Below, piece by piece: positions 35,858 to 42,286 of a stretch of DNA of 46,078 bases; the stretch's first letter is position 1; every line of letters starts with the position of its first letter. The position numbers and the translations under genes were made by a program. The notes under the pieces were generated by a model. It had not been told where the DNA came from and did no database searches. It was given only the letters and a program-made list of their open reading frames with translations. The stretch covers positions 15,684-61,761 of the forward strand of contig JAUNGS010000006.1 of assembly GCA_030524435.1 (NCBI GenBank), given 5' to 3'. The DNA comes from Eubacterium sp. GTDB lineage: Bacteria; Bacillota; Clostridia; Eubacteriales; Eubacteriaceae.

Positions 35858-37075
35858 TTACTCTATAGTCACCGTGGTCTTGCTGGGCGAGATGGCCTGC
35901 ACCGTCGTCCCCGAGGGCGCATCCACCTTGATGTCCACCTCGACCTGGCCGGTGTTCTGGCCGCTTAAGTCGATATAGGCGCTAATGTCCTCGTTTTTCA
36001 ATTGGTTGAGCTCCGAGGAGATCCCCGATAGCTTGACCACCACAGAGCTGTCCTGAACCTTGGTAACCCGAAGGCCGTTTCCTAAATTTCTGATATCAAT
36101 CTTGTCCACCGTAAAGCTGCGCTCCACCACAGGCTCGATATCCACGGTGACCGTCACCTTGCTGTTGCCGTCTAAGAAGCTGGCGCCCTCGGGCAGCTTC
36201 AGATTGACCTCCTTGGTGACTGTTTTACTGGCGCCGCTGATATCCACGGCGTCCACCGAAATACTGGCGATGCTGGAGAGCAGCGATGCCTTGGCCCCCA
36301 CTAGCTTTTCCGAGGGGCTCACCGAAATTTTAGTGGCCTTGTAGCCCTCCGCCGCATTCCCCACAATCTGGGGCGTGCTGATGGGGATCTCCTTGGTTTT
36401 CCCGATGGTGATATCCACCGCCACCACGTTGGGGGTGAATACCAGATCCTCGATGATATTGCCGTCGGCGTCGTAGGCCACCACCGGCTGGTACTGGGTG
36501 CCGTCCTCGCTCATGCCGCTGACGTCAGCGGTGGCGATGAGCTTGTCGATTCTGGCCAGGGCCGCACTGGCGCCGGTGACCTGAACCTTGGCCTCTGAAG
36601 CCGCCGACACCACCACGTTATCCCCTGCAGGCTTGCCCTCGGTGACCACCGAGACCTCCCGCTCGGAGTCGACGATGCTGTCCACCTCCAGGCGGATGGT
36701 CTGGGGATTGACTTCCTCTAAAATCACCGAGTTGGAGAGCCCCTTCACCACGATTTCCTGGTCGTAGCTGCCGGCGCTGGTGATATTGCTGAGATCTACC
36801 TCGGCGGTGATCTCCTTGCGGTCGATGGCCGTCAGGCTCCTGTCGGTGCCCTTGACCCTGAGGTTGACATAGTAGCCCCGGTTGTCCGACAGCACCAGAT
36901 TGTTCTCCTTGAGCACCTCGGTGTTGGTCAGGGTGACGGGAATGCTGTTGATGTCCTGGACAATGATGTCGTTGGAGCTGCCGTTGATGTAGGCCCAGAG
37001 CAAAATGGCCAGCACAATGGCGAAGATCAGGCGCACGACCTTCTCATTCATGGGTATTTTCTTGTTTCTTTCCAT
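35858..37075 (-). CDS. cdaR: YbbR-domain regulator of diadenylate cyclase, CdaR-like
   Basis: A 405-residue protein with a single N-terminal membrane anchor (about 12-28, VVRLIFAIVLAILLWAYI) and an extracellular part made of repeated YbbR domains of about 80 residues each, recognisable by recurring VxLxGxxxxL patterns (for example VQVTGASAAL, VVKLSGISSELNQL). In Bacillus and Listeria CdaR binds CdaA and modulates c-di-AMP synthesis. Its start overlaps the end of cdaA by 32 bases, typical of the tightly coupled pair. There is no glmM immediately downstream; a terminator and the zinc operon follow instead. Confidence 0.9.
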   Translation of the reverse strand: MERNKKIPMNEKVVRLIFAIVLAILLWAYINGSSNDIIVQDINSIPVTLTNTEVLKENNLVLSDNRGYYVNLRVKGTDRSLTAIDRKEITAEVDLSNITSAGSYDQEIVVKGLSNSVILEEVNPQTIRLEVDSIVDSEREVSVVTEGKPAGDNVVVSAASEAKVQVTGASAALARIDKLIATADVSGMSEDGTQYQPVVAYDADGNIIEDLVFTPNVVAVDITIGKTKEIPISTPQIVGNAAEGYKATKISVSPSEKLVGAKASLLSSIASISVDAVDISGASKTVTKEVNLKLPEGASFLDGNSKVTVTVDIEPVVERSFTVDKIDIRNLGNGLRVTKVQDSSVVVKLSGISSELNQLKNEDISAYIDLSGQNTGQVEVDIKVDAPSGTTVQAISPSKTTVTIE

Positions 37076-37904
37076 CTTTCTTCCCCCAGAGTTTTAAAAA
37101 TCCCTTGTCATCGTCGCTTTCCTCCTGGGTGAAGCGATCCAATAGCAGCTCTTCGATATCACCGGCAGTCATGCCGCGGTTGAGAATCCCCTTCTCGGTG
37201 TAGGAGATTGTACCGGTCTCCTCGGAGACGATGATGGTGAAGGCGTCGGATTTCTCGGAGATGCCGAGGCCCGCCCGATGCCTAGTGCCCAGCTCGCTGC
37301 CCAGATACCGGTTGTCGGAAAGGGGCAGCAGGCAGCCGGCGGCACAGAGTCTGTTGGACCAGAGCTTCATGACCACGGCGCCGTCGTGGAGGGGTCTGTT
37401 GGGCGTAAAAATATTTTCGAGCAGCTCCCGGCTGATGTCGGAATCCAGCTGGATCCCCGTGTCCATAATATTTTTAAGGCCCGTGTCCCGCTCGCAGACG
37501 ATCAAGGCGCCGATGTGCTGCTTGGACAGGCTTTCCACTGCCTTGGTAATTTCCTTGACATCCCTGGCCACAGAGTTTTTATCAGCCCGCCAGTAAATTC
37601 GCCTGAAAAAGCGGTTGTTGCCCAGCTGTTCCAGGGCAGACCTGAGCTCCGGCTGAAATACCACCACAAAGATGATAAAGGCCCAGGTGAACAGCATCGT
37701 GATGATATAGTTGAGGGTTGTGAACTTCAGCCAGGAGCTTAAGGGCGCAAGGACCAGCAGAATGGCGATGCCCCGGACAACCTGTTCCGCCTGGGTGCCC
37801 CGCATCCATTTTAAAACCTTGTATATTAAAAAGGCGATAATAGCGATTTCAATGACACTGTTTATCGTGATCTTCGACTGTATGTACAGAATGAGTTCTT
37901 CCAT
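37044..37904 (-). CDS. cdaA: Diadenylate cyclase CdaA
   Basis: A 286-residue membrane diadenylate cyclase that makes c-di-AMP from two ATP. Three hydrophobic helices occupy residues ~14-85; the DAC domain (~100-260) has the signature LHDGAVV (DGA at 174-176) and GTRHRAGLG (RHR at 208-210). The C-terminal tail is charged (RFTQEESDDDKGFLKLWGKKDGKK). It is first in the cdaA-cdaR operon, with a TATAAT 30 bases upstream. On the other side of that promoter lie a structured leader and a CBS-domain gene in the opposite direction. Confidence 0.95.
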   Translation of the reverse strand: MEELILYIQSKITINSVIEIAIIAFLIYKVLKWMRGTQAEQVVRGIAILLVLAPLSSWLKFTTLNYIITMLFTWAFIIFVVVFQPELRSALEQLGNNRFFRRIYWRADKNSVARDVKEITKAVESLSKQHIGALIVCERDTGLKNIMDTGIQLDSDISRELLENIFTPNRPLHDGAVVMKLWSNRLCAAGCLLPLSDNRYLGSELGTRHRAGLGISEKSDAFTIIVSEETGTISYTEKGILNRGMTAGDIEELLLDRFTQEESDDDKGFLKLWGKKDGKKQENTHE

Positions 37905-37933
37905 GCTCTTTTATCCTTTAGTGTAATGATTTT

Positions 37934-37962
37934 ATTATACACTATTTTTTTCTCTGTGATAA
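37934..37962 (-). promoter_or_regulatory. Promoter of cdaA-cdaR
   Basis: Minus-strand TATAAT (plus 37934-37939) directly preceded by GTG, with a weak -35 TTATCA 17 bases upstream. The 37905-38377 gap otherwise holds the divergent promoter and leader described separately. Confidence 0.5.
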
Positions 37963-38024
37963 CCGGCTCTCCCCCAGTTTTTTATCAATTTACAAAATGG
38001 ATACACTTCTTTACAAAAACAACG

Positions 38025-38052
38025 TTTACAAATATTTAAAACCTGATATAAT
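38025..38052 (+). promoter_or_regulatory. Promoter of the structured leader and CBS-domain gene
   Basis: TTTACA (38025-38030), a 16-base spacer ending in TGA and TATAAT (38047-38052), an extended -10 promoter. The start point would be near 38059, about 320 bases before the CBS coding region. Confidence 0.75.
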
Positions 38053-38059
38053 ATAAGCA

Positions 38060-38264
38060 TAATCAAGTTACCAAAGAAGATTACTTTAAGTCTTTCTTCA
38101 GAAAGAAAGATGTGACGTAAGGAATGATTTACCACAATCCCTGCGGGGGTCCACTGGAACATTCAAGCGGACTTACCTCACCAAAAGAATCTATCCGAAG
38201 CCTTTGATTAAATCCAACCAGAAAGGACTGAGACCACCAGAAATGCAAACTGAACCCAAAAATT
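38060..38264 (+). ncRNA. Structured leader RNA, candidate riboswitch upstream of the CBS-domain gene
   Basis: Predicted by hand pairing. The closing stem is TAATCAA (38060-38066) with TTGATTA (38204-38210), then AGATT (38078-38082) with AATCT (38188-38192). One branch is TCTTTCTT-CAGA-AAGAAAGA (38091-38110). The other is GTGA-C-GTAAG (38112-38121) with CTTAC-C-TCAC (38172-38181), enclosing GAATG / CATTC (38122-38126, 38160-38164), CCA / TGG and a CCC-TGC-GGG hairpin. This is a three-way junction followed by an intrinsic terminator. It is not a clear match to any riboswitch consensus I know. Some pieces (CC..AATCCC, GGGGGTCCA, CTATCCGAAGCC) loosely recall the ydaO c-di-AMP class. Confidence 0.5.
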
Positions 38265-38319
38265 AAAGCCGGTTCCATCGAGATAACACTTATCCCTATG
38301 GAGCCGGTTTTACTTTTTT
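38265..38319 (+). terminator. Intrinsic terminator in the leader of the CBS-domain gene
   Basis: A 14-pair stem, AAAGCCGGTTCCAT with ATGGAGCCGGTTTT (two G-U pairs), a 19-base loop, then a T-rich tail with T6. GAACC at 38252-38256 can instead pair with GGTTC at 38271-38275 inside the stem, a possible antiterminator. No promoter is seen between this and the CBS gene 58 bases downstream. Confidence 0.85.
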
Positions 38320-38377
38320 GATTCAGAGGCTTACCCCGGCTGCCACGGCGCCGCCGCATTTCCAGAAAGGACCCATC

Positions 38378-38803
38378 ATGAAAAATCATCTCTTTTATCT
38401 GATCCCCAAGGCGGATCTCACCTACGTCCACGAGGAGGACAGCTTTCAGTCGGTGCTGGACATCTTTCTCACCAGCACCTACACCGCTCTGCCGGTCATC
38501 GACGACAAGGGCCACTATCTATTCACCGTCGGCGAGGGGGATCTTTTGCGGACCCTGTACATGAGCTGCAAGCACCCCGACATCAGTCTGGACAATTTTA
38601 CCATCGGCGACATCGAGCCCAAAATCAAAGTGGAGGCCGCCCCCATCGCCACGGAATTCAAGGAGGTGGTGCGGATGGCCATGCACCAGAACTTTGTGCC
38701 CCTGGTGGACGACCAGAGGGTACTCATCGGTATTTTAAGGCGCCAGGAGCTCATCTCCGAGCTGATGGCCGGGCTGGACGGCGACGATTTAAAAAAGCTT
38801 TAG
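38378..38803 (+). CDS. CBS-domain protein resembling c-di-AMP receptor DarB/CbpB
   Basis: A 141-residue protein made of two CBS motifs and nothing else. CBS1 has TALPVIDDKGHYLFTVGEGDLL (36-57) and CBS2 has NFVPLVDDQRVLIGILRRQE (105-124). Length and layout match DarB (YkuL) of Bacillus and CbpB of Listeria, which bind c-di-AMP and regulate Rel and pyruvate carboxylase; the C-terminal pattern NxFVxxxxDxxxxxGIxxR is shared. AAAGGA lies 9 bases before the ATG at 38378. It lies next to cdaA-cdaR and converges on the pyruvate carboxylase gene, which strengthens a c-di-AMP receptor role. Binding itself is inferred. Confidence 0.75.
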   Translation: MKNHLFYLIPKADLTYVHEEDSFQSVLDIFLTSTYTALPVIDDKGHYLFTVGEGDLLRTLYMSCKHPDISLDNFTIGDIEPKIKVEAAPIATEFKEVVRMAMHQNFVPLVDDQRVLIGILRRQELISELMAGLDGDDLKKL

Positions 38804-38807
38804 GTAT

Positions 38808-38842
38808 AAAAAAATCCGACGAAATTTCGTCGGATTTTTTTA
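38808..38842. terminator. Bidirectional terminator between the CBS gene and pyc
   Basis: Perfect 11-bp stem ATCCGACGAAA / TTTCGTCGGAT with A7/T7 runs on both sides, serving both convergent genes. Confidence 0.95.
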
Positions 38843-38857
38843 TTTTAAAGGCCTCGG

Positions 38858-41800
38858 CTAGTCTAATTTGATAATCAGCTCGCCGGACTGGACGTTCTGT
38901 CCCTCGGTGACGTAGATTTCGCTGATCACACCGGCGGTGTGGGCCACGATCTCCGTCTCCATCTTCATGGCCTCGACGATGACCAGGGGCTGGTTTTCCT
39001 CCACCTTGTCCCCCTCGTTGACCAGTACCTTTAAGACCGTCCCCGGGATGCCGGAGCCGATTTCCTTGGGATTGTCGGGATCTGCCTTGAGCATGGTATT
39101 CTTTTCCTTGGCAAAGAGGCTGCGCTTGTCTTCGATGTAGATTTCCCGGCGGAATCCGTCCACCTCAAAGAGCACCGAGCGATAGCCCTCGTCGTTGGGC
39201 TGACCGACCTTAACCAGGCGGATGATCACCCGGCGTCCCTTGTCGATCTCAACCTCGGCGATTTCACCCTCTTTCAGGCCGTAGAAGAAGGCGTGGCTGT
39301 CCATGCGCATGAAGTCGCCGTTTTCCTGATAGAAGGTGACGTATTCCTTAAATACCTTGGGGTACAGGGCTGCACTGATGACCTCTCTCTCCGCCAGCTC
39401 GATGCCAAATTCCTGGCGATATTCCTCCTTGATGGCCTCAAAGTCCTCGTCGGGAAGCAAGAGCCCCGGACGGACGGTGATGGGCTCTAAGCCCTTGAGG
39501 ACAATCTCCTGAAGCTTGGGATCAAAGCCGCCCTCGGGCTGGCCGATCATGCCGCGGAAGTAGTCCACCACGGAGTTGGGGTAGGCCAAATCCTTGCCCT
39601 TGTCGTAGATATTGTCGCGGTCGAGGCCGTTCTGAACCATGAAGATAGCCATGTCCCCCACAACCTTGGAGGAGGGAGTTACCTTGACAATGTCTCCCAA
39701 CAGCAGATTGGCCTCCATGTATTTTTCCTTGACCTCTTTGAACTTGTGGCCCAGACCAAAGCTTTCCACCTGGCTTTTCAGATTGGAGTACTGGCCCCCG
39801 GGGATTTCCAGCTTATAGATCTCGGCGCTGCCGGATTTCAAGCCCGATTCAAACTGGGCATAGACCTGACGGGTGGTGCCCCAGTAATCGGAGATCAGCT
39901 GGAGATCGTCCTCGTTGAGACCGGTATCCCTGGGGGTGTTGGCCAGGGCCGCCACGATGGAGTTTAAGGCCGGCTGGCTGGTTAAGCCGCTCATGCCGTT
40001 GAAGGCCGCATCGGCGATGTCCAGCCCCGCCATGGCTCCCATGAGCACCGAAGCCACGCCGTTGCCCGCCGTGTCGTGGGTGTGGAAGCGAATGGGCATA
40101 TCGACCTCTTCCTTGAGGGTTGAGATCAGCTTGTGGGCCGCCGCCGGCTTCACCAGGGCCGACATGTCCTTGATGGCCAGGATATGGGCGCCGGTGGCCT
40201 CGATTTCCTTGGCCAGACGCACGTAGTAGTCTAAATCGTATTTCGTCTTTTTAGGATCTAAAATATCCCCGGTGTAGCAGATGGCCACCTCGGCCACCTT
40301 GCCGCTCTTTAAGACCTCCTCGATGGACAGCTTCATGCCCTCCATCCAGTTCAGGGAGTCGAAGATTCTGAAGACGTCGATGCCGCCCTCGGCCGCCGTC
40401 TGGATAAACTTCTTAACCACGTTGTCGGGGTAGTTTTTGTAGCCCACGGCGTTGGCGCCCCTTAAAAGCATCTGGAACAGGATGTTGGGGATACGCTTTC
40501 TCAGCTCGTCCAGACGCCGCCAGGGGGATTCTTTAAGGAAGTTGTAGGCCACGTCGAAGGTGGCGCCCCCCCACATTTCCAGGGCAAAGAGATCCTTGGC
40601 CAAATAGGCCGTCTCCCTGGCGATTTTAATCATATCGCGGCTTCTGACCCGGGTGGCCACCAGAGACTGGTGGGCATCCCTTAAAGTGGTGTCGCCGATG
40701 AGCAGCTTATCCTGGGCCTTGATCCAGGAAACCAGCCCCTCGGGGCCCTGCTCGTCGAGGATCTGCTTGGTGCCGCGAAGTTCTGCATCCCTGGGGATTT
40801 CCGGAATTTCCGGCTCGTCGAAGTCCGGCTTGTCGCCGAAGGTCTGGTTGACGGCAATGTCGCCAAAGTAGCGGATCACATTGTAGGCCGCGCTCTTTTC
40901 CTCGTGGATCTGGAAGAGCTCGGGGTGCTCGTCGATGAACTTGGTGTCGCAGTTCCCGGCCTTAAACTCGGGGTGCTCCAGGACGTTGATCAAAAAGTCC
41001 TTGTTGGTGGAAATGCCCTCGATTTTCATTTCCTTTAGGGCCCGCAGGGCCTTACGGCGGGCGTCCTCAAAGTTTCTGGAGTAGGCCGTGGACTTAACCA
41101 GCAGGCTGTCGTAGTAGGGGGTGATTTCCGCCCCGGTGAAGCCGTTGCCCCCGTCCAGACGGATGCCAGCGCCGCTGGCGGTACGGTAGACGTCCAGGCG
41201 GCCGGTGTCGGGCATAAAGTGGTTCTTGGGGTCCTCGGTGGTGATTCGGCACTGGATGGCACAGCCCCGGCTGGTGACGGCGTCCTGGCCCTTGATGCCC
41301 ACCTCGTCGGAATCCAGGGCGTAGCCCTCGGCGATCATGATCTGAGACTGAACCAGGTCGATGCCCGTGACCAGCTCGGTGACGGTGTGCTCCACCTGGA
41401 TTCTGGGGTTCATCTCGATGAAATAGTGGTCGCCGTGCTTGTCCACCAAAAATTCGATGGTACCGGCGTTTCTGTAGCTCACGGCCTTGGCCAGCTTGAT
41501 GGCGTCGGCACAGATGGCCTGGCGCTGGGCTTCGGTGATGCTTAAAGAGGGGGTGAACTCGATGATCTTCTGGTGACGTCTCTGGATGGAGCAGTCGCGC
41601 TCAAAGAGGTGGCAGATATTGCCGTAGTTGTCCCCCAAAATCTGAACCTCGATGTGCTTGGGCTCCTCGAGGTATTTTTCAATAAAGATGGTGCCGTCGC
41701 CAAAGGCCTTGGTGGCCTCGCTCATGGCGGAGTGGTATTCCTTTAAAAGATCCTTCTCGTCTCGAACGATACGCATCCCCCGGCCGCCGCCGCCGGCCGC

Positions 41801-42286
41801 CGCCTTTAAAATGATAGGATAGCCCGCAACCTTGGCGTACTCCAGGGCCTCCTCGTCACAGGTGATGGGCTTTTCCACCCCGGGAATGGTGGGCACGTTG
41901 ACGGATTTCGCCACGATTTTCGACTGAATCTTATCCCCCATCTGCTCCATCATGGTGTGGGTTGGGCCGATGAAGGCGATGCCCTCATCCTCACACTTTT
42001 TGGCAAAGACCGGATTTTCAGACAGGAAGCCGTAGCCGGGATGGATGGCGTCGACCTCCTTTTTCTTCGCCAGGGAGATGATTTTATCCATATCTAAATA
42101 GGCCTCTACAGGGCCGGTGGTGCCTGTGATCAGATAGGCCTCGTCGGCCTTGGTTCTAAACAGAGAAAGCCTGTCCTCCTGGGCGTAAATGGCCACCGTG
42201 CGGATGCCAAGCTCCTGGCAGGCACGGATAATGCGGATCGCAATTTCGCCGCGGTTGGCGATCAATACTTTATTGAATTTTTTCAT
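38858..42286 (-). CDS. pyc: Pyruvate carboxylase
   Basis: A 1142-residue single-chain biotin enzyme that makes oxaloacetate from pyruvate and bicarbonate with ATP. Domains in order: biotin carboxylase (1-450; KVLIANRGEIAIRI, the ATP loop GGGGRGMRIV, EMNPRIQVEHTVTE), carboxyltransferase TIM barrel (about 530-830; TLRDAHQSL, metal-site RFHTHDTAGN), PC tetramerisation/allosteric domain, and the C-terminal biotinyl domain with EAMKMETEI (biotin Lys1108). In an acetogen it feeds gluconeogenesis and C4 precursors. In other Firmicutes this enzyme is controlled by c-di-AMP directly or through DarB, notable because a DarB-like gene is its convergent neighbour. Confidence 0.97.
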   Translation of the reverse strand: MKKFNKVLIANRGEIAIRIIRACQELGIRTVAIYAQEDRLSLFRTKADEAYLITGTTGPVEAYLDMDKIISLAKKKEVDAIHPGYGFLSENPVFAKKCEDEGIAFIGPTHTMMEQMGDKIQSKIVAKSVNVPTIPGVEKPITCDEEALEYAKVAGYPIILKAAAGGGGRGMRIVRDEKDLLKEYHSAMSEATKAFGDGTIFIEKYLEEPKHIEVQILGDNYGNICHLFERDCSIQRRHQKIIEFTPSLSITEAQRQAICADAIKLAKAVSYRNAGTIEFLVDKHGDHYFIEMNPRIQVEHTVTELVTGIDLVQSQIMIAEGYALDSDEVGIKGQDAVTSRGCAIQCRITTEDPKNHFMPDTGRLDVYRTASGAGIRLDGGNGFTGAEITPYYDSLLVKSTAYSRNFEDARRKALRALKEMKIEGISTNKDFLINVLEHPEFKAGNCDTKFIDEHPELFQIHEEKSAAYNVIRYFGDIAVNQTFGDKPDFDEPEIPEIPRDAELRGTKQILDEQGPEGLVSWIKAQDKLLIGDTTLRDAHQSLVATRVRSRDMIKIARETAYLAKDLFALEMWGGATFDVAYNFLKESPWRRLDELRKRIPNILFQMLLRGANAVGYKNYPDNVVKKFIQTAAEGGIDVFRIFDSLNWMEGMKLSIEEVLKSGKVAEVAICYTGDILDPKKTKYDLDYYVRLAKEIEATGAHILAIKDMSALVKPAAAHKLISTLKEEVDMPIRFHTHDTAGNGVASVLMGAMAGLDIADAAFNGMSGLTSQPALNSIVAALANTPRDTGLNEDDLQLISDYWGTTRQVYAQFESGLKSGSAEIYKLEIPGGQYSNLKSQVESFGLGHKFKEVKEKYMEANLLLGDIVKVTPSSKVVGDMAIFMVQNGLDRDNIYDKGKDLAYPNSVVDYFRGMIGQPEGGFDPKLQEIVLKGLEPITVRPGLLLPDEDFEAIKEEYRQEFGIELAEREVISAALYPKVFKEYVTFYQENGDFMRMDSHAFFYGLKEGEIAEVEIDKGRRVIIRLVKVGQPNDEGYRSVLFEVDGFRREIYIEDKRSLFAKEKNTMLKADPDNPKEIGSGIPGTVLKVLVNEGDKVEENQPLVIVEAMKMETEIVAHTAGVISEIYVTEGQNVQSGELIIKLD

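Follow-up and report, generated by a model that had tools for sequence, protein, structure and literature searches.

In the window, the whole 46,078-nt stretch of DNA analysed here, cdaA, a gene for a CBS-domain (DarB-like) protein and the pyruvate carboxylase gene (pyc) adjoin one another (37044-42286), and a structured RNA appears to be encoded between the first two. Is this RNA a leader of the CBS gene, or a gene of its own? The first-pass annotation favoured a leader with a terminator that controls the CBS gene, possibly in response to c-di-AMP. Pfam confirmed cdaA (DAC domain) and pyc, and gave one CBS match for the gene at 38378-38803 (+), which is DarB-like by context. In B. subtilis, DarB is a CBS protein and c-di-AMP receptor that binds pyruvate carboxylase (PMC8822347), and the cluster therefore suggests a local c-di-AMP/pyc module. 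This neighbourhood is coherent, yet it leaves the RNA unexplained.

The basic parts of the element were reproduced. Its promoter (38025-38052, on the (+) strand like all features below) is of the extended -10 type, with TTTACA at 38025-38030, a 16-nt spacer, TG at 38044-38045 and TATAAT at 38047-38052. It has 11 of 12 matches and ranked first among five promoter-like sites in the region, where 1.6 were expected from shuffled sequences. A second TTTACA was observed upstream of the -35 box (38009-38030 in the window, and in homologues from several genera), and may be a regulator site. The RNA of about 260 nt would extend from 38058 to 38319, as judged from the -10 box and the T-run, respectively. 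The predicted fold contained the three-way junction described before, with a closing stem P1 (38060-38067 paired with 38203-38210; core TAATCAA 38060-38066 and TTGATTA 38204-38210), P2 (38076-38087 paired with 38184-38195), the CAGA-capped hairpin P3 (38090-38111) and a second branch with interrupted pairing, P4 (38112-38178). The intrinsic terminator (38264-38319) has a 15-bp stem (38264-38278 and 38298-38312), reported earlier as 14 bp, followed by T6 at 38314-38319. The folding energy of the whole transcript was well below that of shuffled sequences (z = -3.76), with most of the excess due to the terminator, and the upstream domain alone was weakly better than shuffles (z = -1.68; 13 of 200 shuffles were equally good).

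Four other Eubacterium genomes have a full-length DNA match of 71-73% identity at the same place, between cdaA and the CBS gene, and promoter, structured RNA, terminator and CBS gene are arranged in this order in all five. The three-way junction, including P3, is kept in the five-species alignment. P1 is mostly and P2 wholly unchanged, P4 shows compensatory changes, and 6 of the 74 predicted pairs are changed on both sides, mainly in this second branch. In the genus Eubacterium, some 25-60 nt separate the terminator from the CBS start codon, and a promoter scan of the region found no promoter-like site between the two. Readthrough is therefore a plausible and the simplest source of CBS mRNA in this genus, and to that extent the earlier proposal that expression of the CBS gene requires readthrough is retained.

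The adjoining cdaA, the gene order in five genomes and the compensatory changes in the branch would all suit a riboswitch-type CBS leader, in which c-di-AMP or another ligand is sensed through the three-way junction. The RNA resembles the ydaO/yuaA riboswitch (RF00379) in being clostridial and structured, in having a promoter and a terminator, and in lying near c-di-AMP genes in the window genome. However, nothing matched RF00379 at the gathering threshold and the family was absent from the hits even at E up to 10, so this identification was rejected. The part of the RNA that is conserved between genera is a motif beside the terminator, which looks like a ribosome-binding site, and not the sequence of the folded domain, in which a ligand would be bound. 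Moreover, the RNA occurs without c-di-AMP genes downstream, and a convergent gene rather than a co-directional one follows eleven copies. A ligand-sensing leader, including the c-di-AMP element suggested earlier, is thus very unlikely.

Comparison of the loci also spoke against a leader that serves the CBS gene alone. The RNA lies beside cdaA in E. barkeri/aggregans, Pseudoramibacter and a Eubacteriaceae MAG, with a convergent gene downstream, which is pyc in all but one case, and a protein search found no CBS homologue anywhere in these genomes. The search also found none in a fourth genus, where a different copy of the RNA is present. Conversely, in Acetobacterium cdaA is separated from a divergently oriented CBS gene by 175 nt in which this RNA is absent. 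Since genomes can carry either one without the other, the dedicated leader was rejected; the distribution points to an autonomous RNA gene.

Further copies were found with R1, a covariance model that describes the RNA's 3' part by sequence only. The unit of promoter, stem, motif and terminator is present in six of the nine Eubacteriaceae genera; most Eubacterium, Acetobacterium and E. barkeri-type genomes have two to five copies, and Pseudoramibacter has one. R1 found no copy in three small-genome Eubacteriaceae genera or in 27 genomes that represent the order's other families. Two sites recur, one beside cdaA and the other downstream of a radical-SAM/DUF2344 gene pair; the latter locus is syntenic in five genera, one of which has no cdaA copy. 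Paralogues adjoin unrelated genes, and where the downstream gene is not convergent it differs from copy to copy (CBS, TSCPD, ndk, galE). A promoter was recognisable in all 46 extracted copies (TTTACA or close to it, a spacer of 16-18 nt and a TATAAT-like box, mostly preceded by TG). The copies are about 250 to 1,100 nt long, and a 600-nt Acetobacterium RNA with the same kind of promoter, 3' motif and terminator matched the DNA of 17 of 19 genomes, frequently at several places in one genome. The larger copies have a common hairpin, read by eye as CUUA-UAGCAUAUAGAGACU-UAAG, with CCUG...CAGG in one genus. In three Acetobacterium copies (L096:1501-2650, L097:500-1641 and L098:1501-2649), about 590 extra bases within the variable domain give RNAs of about 1.1 kb, and a single RNA at L140:2422-2898 has two examples of the conserved hairpin CUUAUAGCAUAUAGAGACUUAAG, as if a module had been duplicated. 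E. barkeri and E. aggregans (L138:337-1103 and L139:2805-3573) have a tandem pair of complete RNA genes about 355 nt apart, each with its own promoter and terminator.

An exact pattern scan over 85,000 species led to two clostridial MAGs outside Eubacteriaceae, and about a dozen more genomes of their family bear the motif, mostly in short RNAs with promoter, motif and terminator. From these sequence features, relatives of the Eubacteriaceae RNA occur in at least one other family. A sample of 391 Clostridia genomes, searched with filters by which weak matches are lost, revealed no further groups. The weak class-wide matches (E about 1e-3) were rejected because they resemble coding sequence or ordinary ribosome-binding sites. 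Pattern matches in Avoscillospira (L033) and Comamonadaceae (L036) lack the promoter and terminator context and were regarded as chance, and one match in a tRNA-rich region (L137, G000 contig 74) was also discarded. A phage or plasmid element was rejected, since the RNA is syntenic in the hosts and DNA searches of phage and plasmid collections gave no match.

The short, the large and the second-family members were all compared with Rfam 15, and only tRNA, TPP and sub-threshold microRNA/sRNA noise was returned, in agreement with the initial description of the RNA as unrecognised. The RNA is similar in length to 6S RNA (RF00013) and also has a closing stem near its 5' end, but a separate above-threshold 6S was present elsewhere in 12 of 12 genomes tested, and 6S RNA was therefore rejected. 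OLE, ROOL, GOLLD and raiA/ModT share with it a length of hundreds of nucleotides, structure, an own promoter and conservation in Firmicutes. They differ from the present RNA, which has no Rfam match and combines a size range of about 100 to about 1100 nt with a single fixed 3' core. The RNA represents an unnamed multicopy family, missing from Rfam 15, in acetogens of industrial interest (Eubacterium, Acetobacterium).

The stem that closes the variable 5' domain is maintained by compensating changes. In nearly all clades the 5' end of the RNA pairs with bases about 10 nt before the motif. The strands of P1 from the same RNA mostly paired at -9 to -18 kcal/mol, whereas strands swapped between clades averaged -5 to -9.5. 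In 8 of 12 clade groups no more than 2.2% of the swaps matched the pairing of the own strands, and the value was 7% in two more. The own and swapped strands were not separated in two groups, and 16% of the swaps were as good in the window's own group. This test amounts to covariation evidence, and suggests that one stem closes the variable domain and leaves motif and terminator outside.

The conserved motif has the consensus AGAAAGGGGUGAGUCCACCAGAARUG, and its presence in the homologues is partly by construction because they were found with models containing this region. In the window it is AGAAAGGACTGAGACCA (38220-38236), a putative extended Shine-Dalgarno site with 13 pairs to the 3' tail of 16S rRNA. 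The 3' end of 16S rRNA is GGCUGGAUCACCUCCUUUCU in seven of these genomes, and the motif is complementary to nearly the whole tail. In all copies but one the pairing comprises 13-15 bp, interrupted by a small bulge or an internal loop. The pairing energies were -13 to -21.6 kcal/mol, mostly -17 to -21.6, and the divergent exception formed 10 bp at -10.9 kcal/mol. As controls, shuffled motifs gave -8.2 ± 2.8 kcal/mol, and the best candidate start of each of 71 ordinary long ORFs gave a mean of -11.1 kcal/mol, with only two reaching -17.5. The window copy is among the weakest pairers (-13.7 kcal/mol, 13 bp) and falls inside the range of ordinary genes.

The last paired base is located about 7 nt before AUG or GUG, and this distance is nearly constant. 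The spacing from the GG core to the AUG is 14 nt. For 91% of E. limosum genes the Shine-Dalgarno spacing is 5-10 nt (PMC5651825), so initiation may be weak here unless the extended pairing counts. Cryo-EM has shown that in S. aureus the ribosome makes use of extended pairing between Shine-Dalgarno and anti-Shine-Dalgarno sequences close to the start codon, which takes up such spacing (PMC13009471).

A long, nearly invariant motif that is moderately accessible in predicted folds, in a standalone gene, could also belong to a base-pairing regulatory sRNA, with the GUGAGUCCACCAGAAAUG stretch as a seed for mRNA targets and the short ORF behind it an accident. We regard this as unlikely, because the motif is complementary to almost all of the 16S tail, its variants retain that pairing, and the reading frame described below survives changes in length.

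In the window, the motif is followed by the micro-ORF ATG CAA ACT GAA CCC AAA AAT TAA (MQTEPKN; 38243-38266), whose UAA coincides exactly with bases 1-3 of the terminator stem. Among 54 distinct sequences, many of which are close relatives found with models containing the region, frame 0 from AUG or GUG reached a stop after 5-9 codons in 50, compared with 1 and 3 for the other frames. The short ORF was missing in the second-family seeds L169 and L170 and in two other sequences. The ORFs start with ATG or GTG, are 5, 6, 7, 8 or 9 codons long, thus differing by whole codons, and end in TAA (25), TGA (18) or TAG (7). Since the stop lies in the purine-rich arm of the terminator, and three of the four T-purine-purine triplets are stops, terminator pairing alone could partly explain the conservation of the stop.

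Substitutions in the micro-ORF are spread evenly over the codon positions with no excess of silent changes, suggesting that the frame is kept and the peptide is not. The alternative that the peptide of 5-9 residues (MxxE...) is the product, for example as a signal, draws on codon 4, which encodes Glu in most second-family ORFs and in each of the 23 distinct 7-codon ORFs found in the large copies. The peptides are otherwise unrelated (MQTEPKN, MVIEQHC, MISEDVSA, MQHEP), and together with the pattern of substitutions this makes a peptide gene highly improbable. The peptide itself is probably unimportant. Dual-function small RNAs of the RNAIII, SR1 and SgrS type are RNA genes that also carry a small ORF. 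The present RNA is likewise a standalone gene with a small ORF, but the ORF has only 5-9 codons and it is the ribosome-binding motif, not the peptide, that is conserved. Two studies of ribosome profiling in acetogens make no mention of such RNAs in their main text.

As read from the sequences, the architecture is a promoter, a variable domain closed by P1, a 16S-complementary motif, a start codon, an ORF of 5-9 codons and a stop at the foot of the terminator. We propose, with a probability of about one half, that the element in the window is an autonomous RNA gene and a short member of an undescribed multicopy Eubacteriaceae RNA family, which recruits ribosomes and in which translation of the micro-ORF competes with the RNA's own terminator. 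The motif would act as an extended Shine-Dalgarno site that captures ribosomes, and the captured ribosome would translate the micro-ORF and stop on the 5' arm of the terminator. Because the stopped ribosome would cover this arm, ribosome loading and hairpin formation would be mutually exclusive. Some transcripts with a loaded ribosome may continue past the terminator, which in Eubacterium would take them into the CBS gene; without loading, the short RNA would be released. The RNA would then sense ribosome loading, and readthrough would reach whichever gene is downstream. This architecture predicts a direct link between ribosome loading and transcription termination, and the CBS gene between cdaA and pyc would fall under readthrough control in Eubacterium.

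Leader-peptide attenuators (trp-type and antibiotic-resistance) similarly have a short ORF directly before an intrinsic terminator, where a ribosome would block the hairpin, and the short ORF that abuts or overlaps the terminator in the window and in the set above conforms to them. However, our RNA has no sensing codons, has extended 16S complementarity and up to about 1 kb of RNA upstream, and is not followed by a functionally matching gene. A candidate antiterminator pairing exists in the genus Eubacterium only: GAACC (38252-38256), pointed out earlier as a competitor for the terminator stem, can pair with GGTTC (38271-38275). The anti-terminator role then assigned to it is unsupported, since GAACC lies inside the micro-ORF and is not conserved beyond the genus.

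For many copies there is no gene downstream that readthrough could serve, which argues against such a role. The main rival is a trans-acting ribosome decoy, a multicopy RNA that binds free 30S subunits via the 16S tail, with a micro-ORF that lets the ribosome leave and a 5' domain that serves as scaffold or stabiliser. The copy number and strong promoters, the eleven copies that end at a convergent gene, a 16S-tail complementarity close to the maximum and the unconserved peptide all suit it. A decoy has no need of the overlap between stop codon and terminator stem seen in typical copies, and we consider it possible but doubtful. Returning to the proposed competition between translation and termination, its parts (16S-tail pairing over nearly the full length, a micro-ORF for which the peptide does not matter, and a stop codon shared with the terminator) may tentatively be seen as a new type of RNA, a ribosome trap that would measure or buffer ribosome availability and to which a variable domain of 0.1-1 kb is attached.

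Some terminators of the second-family RNAs have additional features. Those of L173, L176 and L183 have a common loop, GGAUGUAGU, so this hairpin may do more than terminate transcription. In L169, L170, L174 and L187, a long insertion with apparent structure of its own seems to lie within the terminator-like stem; it measures about 190 nt in L169 and L170.
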